A DNA stretch of 64,000 nucleotides from Acetobacter vaccinii (lineage in GTDB: Bacteria > Pseudomonadota > Alphaproteobacteria > Acetobacterales > Acetobacteraceae): positions 1,222,001 through 1,286,000 of the forward strand of contig NZ_CP043506.1 of NCBI RefSeq assembly GCF_008365315.1. Direction: 5' to 3'. The position numbers and the translations under genes are program-made. Below are positions 21,449-25,057 of this stretch, in pieces (position 1 is the first letter of the stretch; every line of letters begins with the position of its first letter). The notes below the pieces were generated by a model that was not told the origin of the DNA, did not search any database, and worked only from the letters and a program-made list of their open reading frames with translations.

Positions 21449-24139
21449 ATGAGCGAAGGCAAGGATCAGGATCAGGGTAAAGGGCGTCTGTCCCTTCGTC
21501 CGGCAGGGCGTTCGGAGGTAGGGCGGACGGTTGATGCCGGGTCCGTGCGGCAGAGTTTCAGTCATGGCCGCTCCAAGGTTGTGCAGGTGGAGGTCCGCAA
21601 AAAGCGTGGCCCCGGCACACCTGGTGCGGGTGGCCGTTCAGGCGGGTCACGCGCAGGCGTGGGCCGTACCCTGACAGCAGCCGAACTGGCCATGCGCCAG
21701 CGCGTGCTGGAAGAGCAGAAAAAAGAAGCCGAACTGGCTGTCCAGCGCGAAGCTGAACGGCGCGAGGCAGAAAAAATCCGTATTCTTTCCGCGGCTGAAG
21801 AAGCCCGCCGGAAGGAAGAGGAAGACAAGCGCGCAGCCGAAGAAGCTCAGGCCCAGCAGGCCGCCGCCGAGGAAGAACAGCGCAAAAGCCGTATCGACGC
21901 CATCAAGCCGATCGAAACCCGCGACCCTGTTGTGTCCGCGGTGCCGATCCCTGGCGAAGTGACGCTTGCACCCCCGGTAGGCCGTCTGCGCCCGCTGGCG
22001 GAACGCGCAATCATGCCCGCTCGGCCCCTGCGCCCTGCGGCAACCCCTGCCGCCCCGGCCAGCCGTGCGGCTGACGGTGCAGCCGGTGCCGAGCGCGACA
22101 GCGCCGCCGCCCAGACCCTGCGCCTGCGCAGTGGCCGTGCAGCGGAAGGCGAGGACGAACCACGCCGTGGCCCCTCCCGCAAGGCTCCGCCCAGCGGGCG
22201 CAAGACCGGCGCAGGCCGTAAGGGCGAGGTCAGCAATGGCCGTCGCGCTGGCCGTATTGACGTGCAGGCCGCGATCGAAGGGGACGACGACAAGACCCGT
22301 TCGCTGGCGTCTGTCCGCCGTCAGCGCGAGCGTGAACGCCGCCAGGCCGAGTTGGAGCGCCTGCGTTCCGACCAGGTCAAGGTCGTGCGTGACGTTATCC
22401 TGCCCGAAACCATTACCGTGCAGGAACTGGCCAACCGTATGGCCGCCCGTCAGGGTGAGGTTATCAAAGCCCTGATGAAAATGGGCGTGATGGCCACGGT
22501 CACGCAGTCGATTGATGCTGACACCGCCGAACTGGTGGTGGAGGAATTCGGCCACCGTGTCCGCCGTGTGTCGGAATCGGATGTGGAACTGGGGATCGAA
22601 GGCGTGGAAGACACGGCCGACGACCTGCAGCCCCGTCCGCCTGTGGTGACGGTCATGGGCCATGTTGACCATGGCAAGACCTCCCTGCTTGACGCCCTGC
22701 GCACGACCGATGTGGCCGCGGGTGAAGCCGGTGGCATTACCCAGCATATCGGTGCCTACCAGGTTACTCTGGCGTCTGGTGCACGCATCACCTTCCTCGA
22801 CACCCCCGGTCATGAGGCGTTTACCGCCATGCGTGCCCGTGGTGCCTCCATCACCGACGTGGTGGTGCTGGTTGTCGCGGCAGATGACGGCGTGATGCCG
22901 CAGACGGTTGAAGCCATCAAACATGCCAAGGCCGCTCGCGTGCCTATGATTGTGGCCATCAACAAGATCGACAAGCCGGGTGCCAAGCCCGACCGCGTCC
23001 GTCAGGAACTGCTGCAGCACGAAATCGTGGTCGAATCCATGGGTGGTGACGTCCAGGATATCGAAGTGTCGGCCCTCAAGCGCGAAGGTCTGGATAAGCT
23101 GGAGGAGGGTATCCTCCTGCAGGCTGAAATTCTGGAACTGCGCGCCAATCCGGAACGTCCGGGTGAAGGTGCGGTGATCGAAAGCCGCCTTGACCGTGGC
23201 CGTGGGTCGGTTGCGTCCGTTCTGGTGCAGAAGGGTTCGCTCCGCCGTGGGGACATCGTGGTGGCTGGCGCCGAATGGGGCCGTGTCCGCGCTCTGGTGG
23301 ACGATCATGGCCGCCAGGTTGATGTTGCTGGCCCGTCCACCCCGGTGGAAGTGCTGGGTCTGTCGGGTGTTCCGGCGGCTGGTGCCCCCTTCGTGGTGGT
23401 CGAAAACGAAAACCGCGCCCGCGAGATTTCCGAGTTCCGTCAGCGCAAGCTCAAGGAACATCAGGTCGCAGGGCAGGTTGCCGCTCGTGGCACGCTCGAC
23501 CAGATGCTCGCCCGTATCCAGGCCGGGGACCAGAAAGAGGTTTCCGTACTGGTCAAGGCGGACGTGCAGGGTTCGGCCGAAGCCATCCAGACCACCGTGC
23601 TCAAGCTGGCTAACGAGGAAGTGGGCGTGCGCGTCCTCAACGCCTCTGTCGGCCAGATCACGGAAAGTGATGTGCAGCTTGCCAAGGCGTCGGATGCGGT
23701 CATCATCGCGTTCAACGTCCGCGCAACGGTGCAGGCCCGCCAGCTTGCCCAGCGTGAAGGCGTGGATATCCGCTACTACTCCATCATCTATCAGGTGGCG
23801 GACGACGTGGAGGCTCTGGTCCGCGGCAAGCAGGCTCCCAAGCACCGCGAGAAGTTCCTTGGCTATGCCGAAATCCGCAAGGTTTTCGAAATCAGCAAGA
23901 TCGGCAAGGTGGCTGGGTCTTACATCACAGAAGGCGTGGTCAAGCGCGGCTGTGGCGTGCGTCTGCTGCGTGATGGCGTTGTGATCCACGAAGGTGATCT
24001 CAGCCAGCTCAAGCGCTTCAAGGACGATGTCAAGGAAGTCGCCCGTGGCTATGAGTGCGGTCTCTCCTTCGCAGGCTACAATGACCTGCGCGAGGGTGAC
24101 GTGGTCGAATGCTTCGAAAGCGAGCTGGTTCCGGCATGA
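21449..24139 (+). CDS. infB: Translation initiation factor IF-2
   Basis: This 896-residue GTPase delivers fMet-tRNA to the 30S subunit. A long charged N-terminal region (residues about 80-160) is a predicted coiled coil rich in Glu, Lys and Ala, followed by Arg/Ala/Pro-rich linkers. An IF2_N module ([19 protein letters not shown]) precedes the G domain, which has GHVDHGKTS near residue 403, DTPGHEA and NKIDKP. Domains II to IV follow and end in [10 protein letters not shown]. The gene starts 12 bases after the ylxR stop and overlaps rbfA by four bases. Confidence 0.97.
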
Positions 24140-24597
24140 GCCGTCGGAACAGAGCATCGGGTAAAGTAGAGGGGCCAGCGGGTTATAGCGCTGGCCTTTC
24201 AACTTCCGGCCCGTCGCAGCGCCAGCTCCGTGTTGGTGAAGAAGTGCGCCGTGTGCTGGCCGAAGTGTTTGGCCGCACGGAATTCCGCGATCCTGCTCTG
24301 GTAGATGCCGCCATTACGGTTACGGAAGTCCGCCTTGCGCCCGACTTCCGGCACGCGACGGTGTTTGTCAGCCGTCTGGGCCGGAGCGATGTGGATGTAC
24401 TGCTGCCAGCCCTCAAGCGGGTTGCCCCGTGGCTGCGTACCCAGCTTGCCCATACCTTGCGCCTGCGTACCGTGCCGGAACTGCACTTTCAGCCCGATAC
24501 GGCGCTGGATACGGCCATGCATGTTGATACATTGCTGCGCCTGCCTGAAGTCCAGCGCGATCTGGGCAAGGACACCGACACAACGACTGACGAGTAA
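24136..24597 (+). CDS. rbfA: Ribosome-binding factor A
   Basis: This protein of about 153 residues binds the 30S subunit and helps mature the 5' end of 16S rRNA. The KH-like core is visible: [36 protein letters not shown] and [19 protein letters not shown]. The ATG at 24136 overlaps the infB stop (ATGA) and gives a typical N-terminus; an upstream in-frame start at 24109 would lie inside infB. It is the last protein gene of the operon; truB and rpsO, which often follow, are absent, and an AAGAGGCGC hairpin overlaps the stop. Confidence 0.95.
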
Positions 24598-24749: not shown

Positions 24750-25057
24750 GTCCGCGTAGCTCAGCAGGATAGAGCACAGGATTCCTAGATAATTGGGCAC
24801 CATGATGGGAAACCCCATGGTGAATCCGCTCAAAGTCGGGGAAAGCTACGGCCTTTACGGGCCTTGCCAATCCCGAGCCAAGCCGTTTGACGACGGAAGG
24901 TGTAGAGACTGGACGGGCGGTGCCTAAAGGCCTGTTTTACAGGCCCAGGGCAAAGGGACAGTCCAGCCCACAAACGCACCCTTTTTTGGGGGTGGCAGCG
25001 AAAGCTGTAGTGGGATGAATCCTGGGGCCGTGGGTTCGAATCCCGCCGCGGACACCA
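24750..25057 (+). tRNA. tRNA-Arg(CCT) interrupted by a group I intron
   Basis: The exons 24750-24786 and 25018-25057 join to a 77-nt tRNA. The acceptor stem GTCCGCG pairs with CGCGGAC, the D arm is GCTCAGCAGGATAGAGC, the anticodon stem CAGGA pairs with TCCTG, and the anticodon loop TTCCTAA gives anticodon CCT. The T arm is GTGGG-TTCGAAT-CCCGC, and the discriminator A and CCA are encoded. The intron follows the third anticodon base. It decodes AGG arginine codons. The tRNA does not fold without removal of the 231-base insert, so splicing is required for function. It lies between the rimP-rbfA operon and the NemR-like regulator. Confidence 0.95.
24787..25017 (+). other. Group I self-splicing intron in the anticodon loop of tRNA-Arg(CCT)
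   Basis: The 231-nt intron follows a U (24786) and ends in G (25017), the two invariant group I boundary bases. P1 can form as CCTAG with TTGGG, placing the splice-site U opposite G. A strong P2-like hairpin is CACCATG/CATGGTG (24798-24823). P7 is GACTG (24907-24911) with CAGTC (24959-24963), and P8 is GGCCTGT/ACAGGCC (24929-24945). A GAAA-tetraloop hairpin CAGC-GAAA-GCTG sits at 24996-25007. There is no homing endonuclease frame. Size and position match the tRNA introns known from Agrobacterium tRNA-Arg(CCU) and Azoarcus, so subgroup IC3 is likely. Confidence 0.92.

Follow-up and report, generated by a model that had tools for sequence, protein, structure and literature searches.

The window, i.e. 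the whole 64,000-nt stretch of Acetobacter vaccinii DNA that was analysed, carries in this order infB, rbfA, a split tRNA-Arg(CCU) gene and a TetR-type gene. The tRNA gene (positions 24750-25057, plus strand) is interrupted after anticodon base 36 by a group I intron of 231 nt (Table 1). In its intron mode, ARAGORN reported a tRNA-Arg(cct) split by 231 nt; joined in silico, the exons gave a normal tRNA-Arg(cct) cloverleaf with the loop TTCCTAA. Both results agree with an earlier note on this DNA, which had placed a 231-nt intron directly after the third anticodon base. Run by default, ARAGORN does not report the gene, and the split shows why a default tRNA search overlooks tRNA-Arg(CCU) here. 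The promoter scan found no consensus promoter for the split gene (chance expectation 0.1). Among the genus loci, viewed with flanks of about 1.5 kb or less, rbfA adjoins the split gene only in the window and in one 1.7-Mb genome (locus L006).

The motifs that the same note had listed are all present: a U directly before the 5' splice site, a G as the last intron base, a P7 (GACTG/CAGTC), a P8 stem and a GNRA hairpin, of which we found two, both with GAAA loops. A U.G pair marks the 5' splice site, which, like the terminal G, is as expected of a group I intron. No endonuclease gene was seen, the three minus-strand ORFs overlapping the gene being without Pfam match. Since 231 nt leave little room for such a gene and these frames gave no match, we consider it absent, as had been claimed.

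Table 1. Coordinates of the split gene, its neighbours, the intron elements and the related introns discussed in the text (window positions unless a locus is named)
Feature	Position	Strand	Basis
infB, before rbfA	21449-24139		place in window and genus search
rbfA, upstream neighbour	24109-24597	+	PF02033, E 6.6e-27
5' exon of tRNA-Arg(CCU), ending C34 C35 U36	24750-24786	+	ARAGORN tRNA-Arg(cct), joined exons and intron mode
Group I intron, 231 nt, without endonuclease gene	24787-25017	+	Intron_gpI match, covariation, no Pfam match
3' exon of tRNA-Arg(CCU), CCA encoded	25018-25057	+	ARAGORN on joined exons
P10 guide ATT, pairing with 3' exon AAT (25018-25020)	24792-24794	+	sequence and covariation alignment
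Internal guide GGG, pairing with exon CCU (24784-24786) in P1, U.G at splice site	24795-24797	+	sequence
P2 hairpin, GAAA loop L2 (24809-24812)	24798-24822	+	97.3% paired
P3 5' strand, pairing with 24915-24920	24826-24831	+	100% paired, two-sided change in 4 of 6 pairs
P4 (24836-24841 / 24871-24876), enclosing P5	24836-24876	+	100% paired
P6	24878-24900	+	two helices, 100% and 98.6% paired
P7 5' strand GACTG, with CAGTC (24959-24963), pseudoknotted with P3	24907-24911	+	100% paired in 37 introns
P8 hairpin	24921-24952	+	covariation alignment
P9 region, GAAA loop L9 (25000-25003)	24967-25014	+	covariation alignment
tRNA-Thr(UGU) intron, Acetobacter lambici (G015)	L008, 1478-1768
tRNA-Thr(UGU) intron, A. 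lovaniensis (G016)	L009, 1478-1774
tRNA-Thr(UGU) introns, M. molischianum and Paraburkholderia	L145, 2855-3147; L146, 2756-3039
Putative tRNA-Leu(UAA) gene with intron, pCTX-M3	L264, 4930-5225		R1, 185.7 bits
tRNA-Leu gene with intron, Bradyrhizobium plasmid	L266, 1445-1735

Ribozyme structure of the intron

The Rfam model RF00028 (Intron_gpI) aligns with the intron from end to end (model positions 1-253; 39.9 bits, E 1e-8 in this stretch), and this is its single match in the whole host genome (E 1.2e-8). The score lies under the gathering score of 50 that decides membership, and the intron is therefore absent from a default Rfam scan. This cut-off is severe for these introns, since only 6 of the 49 Acetobacter genomes exceed it. 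Because of this sub-threshold score, we tested the structure directly by covariation. For this purpose, 37 different introns of the genus (35 from tRNA-Arg and 2 from tRNA-Thr) were aligned, and a structure with P1 to P10 and the P3/P7 pseudoknot was drawn on the window's intron.

Pairing was found in 98.9% of the 2358 cells of this structure. Two-sided changes occurred at 40 of the 64 pairs, against a mean of 20.8 in shuffled alignments (none of 500 as high), a comparison to be read with the caveat of the covariation tool that related sequences can beat shuffles without any structure. When the partners were slid by 1-3 columns, pairing dropped to 30-41%, the drawn structure being favoured over the slid versions since it derives from the window's own intron. 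As an example, one P3 pair is CG in 18, UA in 17 and GC in 2 of the 37 introns. The conserved core P3-P8 with its pseudoknot is present, P3, P4 and P7 being paired in 100% of cases; P7 shows a two-sided change in one of its five pairs, the four others being invariant. The earlier note had made the group I assignment depend on the covariance-model score and on the P3-P8 core: the score falls short of the cut-off, and the core is in place. Together with the end-to-end Rfam match and the exact borders, the covariation bears out the assignment itself.

The guide ATTGGGC, P7, the GAAA loops L2 and L9 and the terminal G are kept in all 48 tRNA-Arg introns of the genus. The classic 11-nt GAAA receptor was also considered in P8 and is not claimed, the exact motif occurring in only one of these 48 introns. 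By its likeness to described tRNA introns, the intron probably belongs to subgroup IC3. Compared with 100 shuffled sequences, the 308-nt transcript had the better fold every time (z = -3.59), and the 236-nt stretch 24785-25020 was surpassed or equalled by only one of 200. The minimum-energy fold of the whole precursor does not exactly reproduce the intended P1/P2 arrangement; this type of folding cannot represent the P3/P7 pseudoknot.

Inheritance in Acetobacter and occurrence in the family

We investigated the distribution of the intron in 49 Acetobacter genomes, with RF00028 and with a pattern search. It occupies the same tRNA-Arg site in 48 of them, and ARAGORN identified each of the 48 genes as tRNA-Arg(cct), the intron measuring 226-265 nt. 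RF00028 matched 36 genomes at 38 places (36 tRNA-Arg(cct) and 2 tRNA-Thr(tgt)), while the pattern combining the 5' exon and P7 matched 45; the three intron-bearing genomes missed by this pattern (G007, G008 and G038) were detected by RF00028. The sole exception is a 1.5-Mb genome (G039), where the InfB match is also partial (best E 3.7e-12), so that this absence says little. An exact intact anticodon arm was found in none of the 49 genomes, and none of 13 near matches (1-2 mismatches) lies in a tRNA visible to ARAGORN. The surroundings of the split gene seem to vary within the genus while the intron stays.

The tree distances between introns agree with those between InfB sequences in 45 genomes (Mantel test, Spearman rho = 0.765; none of 999 permutations as high, the highest reaching 0.152), G022, G031 and G044 having been left out of the 48 for a fragmented InfB match. 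In addition, the six introns nearest to the window's copy among the 73 compared all come from the genus, with 78.7-85.7% identity. A search of phage sequences with the intron gave no match. This agreement with InfB and the presence throughout the genus indicate an old intron, passed on vertically in Acetobacter and not newly acquired. The genus thus offers a case of an intron kept vertically for long without any homing gene. To the question whether such introns are ancestral or transferred, raised in the earlier note, this gives an answer at the level of the genus.

Then, a model built from the introns of the genus (R1) was run on an even sample of 150 genomes of the family. R1 matched 71 of them, 56 with at least 190 bits, a cut that we chose ourselves and that is not clean: two lower matches, L058 (155.7 bits) and L088 (153.7 bits), can also be read as tRNA-Arg introns, the latter by ARAGORN only, splice modelling having read it differently. 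The exact intact arm was found in 42 genomes, none of them among the 56 with a strong match and 6 of them with a weaker R1 match; 43 genomes lack both the R1 match and the intact arm. Of 11 strong matches fetched outside the genus, 10 were assigned to tRNA-Arg(CCU) at first rank and one (L066) at second rank. Of the 12 intact loci fetched, 11 contain a complete tRNA-Arg(cct) gene and one lies at a contig end. The site therefore appears polymorphic in the family, which may reflect an early gain followed by losses as well as several gains.

Predicted splicing, rival readings and known relatives

Borders, a conserved ribozyme structure and guide pairing observed at the locus, and vertical inheritance observed across the genus, lead us to read the element, with a probability of about 95%, as a small group I intron of the tRNA type that encodes no endonuclease and probably belongs to subgroup IC3. 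It interrupts the one tRNA-Arg(CCU) gene detected in the genome, and the precursor would splice, perhaps with the help of proteins, into a normal tRNA. Splicing and the use of GTP are predicted from these features. Once the precursor is transcribed, P1, formed by exon CCU and guide GGG, would present the 5' splice site, and an exogenous G would attack after U36. The freed exon would then attack after the terminal G, with P10 aligning the 3' exon, and the joined tRNA would have its normal seven-base loop.

The need for this splicing is another matter. All 48 tRNA matches of the host genome were read and none is a second tRNA-Arg(cct), a point that the earlier note had wished to see checked. This list is incomplete, since tRNA-Ile(GAT) and tRNA-Ala(TGC) are missing from it, perhaps because rRNA operon sequences were not covered or the search overlooked these genes. 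The genome also holds one intact tRNA-Arg(tct) gene, and tRNAs of the tRNA-Arg(UCU) type usually read AGG too by wobble. For this reason, it is doubtful that AGG depends solely on the split gene, and the earlier claim that its decoding depends wholly on splicing was overstated.

This intact tRNA-Arg(tct) could make the loss of the split gene tolerable, and an intron that has decayed and lost its splicing, so that the tRNA gene is now a pseudogene and tRNA-Arg(UCU) reads AGG, would also fit an Rfam score below the cut-off. We nevertheless judge such decay very improbable, as P3, P4, P7, both GAAA loops, the guide, the terminal G and the exons are all intact in the window, and the structured RNA persists across 48 genomes of the genus. 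The same low score is all that speaks for a fortuitous intergenic palindrome between two tRNA halves; against an E of 1e-8 and a strong covariation, the latter being the strongest evidence against chance, this deserves practically no credit.

For a recent arrival of the intron in this strain, by horizontal transfer from a different alphaproteobacterium, speak its sporadic presence across the wider family and the description of this intron family as sporadic and horizontally moved, to go by the title of a 1999 study by Paquin. Such an origin is nonetheless very improbable, slightly more so than decay: 48 of 49 genomes of the genus have the intron at the same site, none of the 49 has the exact intact arm, the intron tree tracks InfB and the six closest of the 73 introns compared are all congeneric. 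We consider a recent transfer into this strain to be largely ruled out by the genus-wide presence and the InfB-like tree. A self-splicing intron, long resident in Acetobacter, is thus the reading that we retain.

The small, endonuclease-free intron of the Azoarcus tRNA-Ile(CAU) has a three-base P1; it lies in another tRNA and in another class, and is likened here by description. The insertion directly after the anticodon of tRNA-Arg(CCU) is the site of an established family. The introns of Agrobacterium and of Bartonella bacilliformis (BbgpI) split the same tRNA-Arg(CCU) and are flanked by CCT as here, and BbgpI has been shown to self-splice in vitro and to be spliced in vivo as well (PMC7717549). 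The window's copy, without endonuclease and from a different genus, is likened to them by description and not by alignment, its own splicing being predicted. Closer to the host, a footnote to Table 1 of a 2015 paper (PMC4596401) records one tRNA (Arg) as interrupted by a group I intron homologue in five acetic acid bacteria, namely Acetobacter pasteurianus, Asaia bogorensis, Gluconobacter oxydans, Gluconacetobacter diazotrophicus and one taken as Komagataeibacter; Granulibacter is not marked as split in the same table. The kind of gene and the family are those of the window, and one species belongs to the same genus; the footnote itself gives no anticodon, borders, structure or distribution. 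The intron is thus a well-preserved member of a family already reported from such bacteria, and the object is known in kind and, since A. pasteurianus is named, very probably in the genus. The novelty that the earlier note had seen in a copy from an acetic acid bacterium does not stand.

Related introns in other tRNA genes and on plasmids

A. lambici and A. lovaniensis have an extra intron, which follows U34 of tRNA-Thr(UGU); its guide is GAG and its P10 has four bases. It shares about 60% identity with the tRNA-Arg intron present in the same genome, but 75.4% with its tRNA-Thr(UGU) counterpart in Magnetospirillum molischianum and 75.5% with a tRNA-Leu intron of another family (L072). A genome scan with a strict pattern returned 39 stretches. 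Four of them hold the Thr intron, one each in these two species, in M. molischianum and in Paraburkholderia sp. CNPSo 3272, while 35 gave no match with R1 and seem fortuitous. The window's genome holds an intact tRNA-Thr(tgt), which differs from the split Acetobacter gene at many positions and is therefore not shown to be the same locus.

A sample of 385 genomes of the class was screened as well. Matches (E 1e-4) were found in at least 50 genomes and at least 58 places, at least 8 genomes having two; these are lower bounds, as 5 candidates were scored per genome and any search of more than 40 genomes runs with stricter filters. Splice modelling placed these introns in tRNA-Arg(CCU), in tRNA-Leu(UAA) at 34/35, in tRNA-Lys, in tRNA-Thr(GGU) and tRNA-Thr(CGU) and in others, several hosts being chosen between near-equal candidates and 9 of the 67 modelled matches giving none. 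The guide mostly fits the exon. The relatives that many Alphaproteobacteria carry at 34/35 in a different tRNA, where the guide is GAG, share the ribozyme type and the anticodon-loop site.

The phylogeny was computed for 74 introns from 202 columns; its deep part is weak, and of its 71 inner branches 37 are open. Host tRNAs cluster on the tree, with 19 changes against 44.9 in shuffles. FastTree joined 36 of the 38 tRNA-Arg introns, including the window's (0.986), L071 and L075 falling among the Leu introns; such stronger-looking clades are to be read in light of the weak deep resolution and of the AU test. The latter rejected neither the union of all 38 tRNA-Arg introns (p = 0.372; Agrobacterium and Bartonella introns outside the set) nor that of the four Thr(UGU) introns (p = 0.51), nor that of the Acetobacter Thr and Arg introns (p = 0.147), the last despite a log-likelihood lower by 37.5. 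Neither one origin nor several origins can be considered shown for the tRNA-Arg introns.

Plasmids carry relatives of the intron as well. A distant search with the window's copy returned 1265 plasmid records, mostly from enterobacteria. On pCTX-M3, a 296-base stretch is readable as a complete tRNA-Leu(UAA) gene with an intron of this type; its name rests on likeness to alphaproteobacterial tRNA-Leu genes, the intron mode of ARAGORN giving a different border and a different tRNA name. The gene has an AAA ATPase gene and aac(3)-IId as neighbours, and in the second of the two enterobacterial regions viewed (L265) an aac(3)-II gene is also nearby. None of the 16 matches listed has an annotated feature under the stretch. 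It matches 1280 of 72,556 plasmid records (1273 with at least 99% identity, 1257 with at least 80% of the stretch in one place). Among 5426 complete E. coli genomes, 635 match, 624 of them with 80% or more of the stretch. Its nearest relative among 398 sampled genomes of the phylum is in an alphaproteobacterium (G260, 86%). A tblastn search with five proteins of the pCTX-M3 region found nothing in the fetched flanks of G260 and of the other matched genomes. The likeness points to an alphaproteobacterial source for the plasmid tRNA-Leu gene, and we claim no more; the gene may serve as a pointer to the source of that segment. In the open-access literature, subscription journals being outside the scope, we recognised no paper that describes either the Thr(UGU) intron or the tRNA-Leu intron of the plasmids.

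Tentatively, and with slightly more doubt than belief, we suggest that a tiny endonuclease-free intron lineage repeatedly switched host tRNA in Alphaproteobacteria (Arg, Leu, Lys and three Thr isoacceptors), its P1 and P10 guides being rewritten at every switch to suit the anticodon loop newly entered, as would be expected for reverse splicing into tRNA and subsequent recombination. The Acetobacter tRNA-Arg copy would be a vertically fixed branch, the Thr(UGU) intron a second copy gained in two Acetobacter, and the Leu(UAA) intron a copy carried on drug-resistance plasmids. The survey makes it testable how endonuclease-free introns reach new tRNAs, natural pairs with matched guides being available, e.g. 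the Arg and Thr(UGU) introns of one genome. Finally, a tRNA-Leu gene with such an intron also occurs on a Bradyrhizobium plasmid, four records sharing the match.
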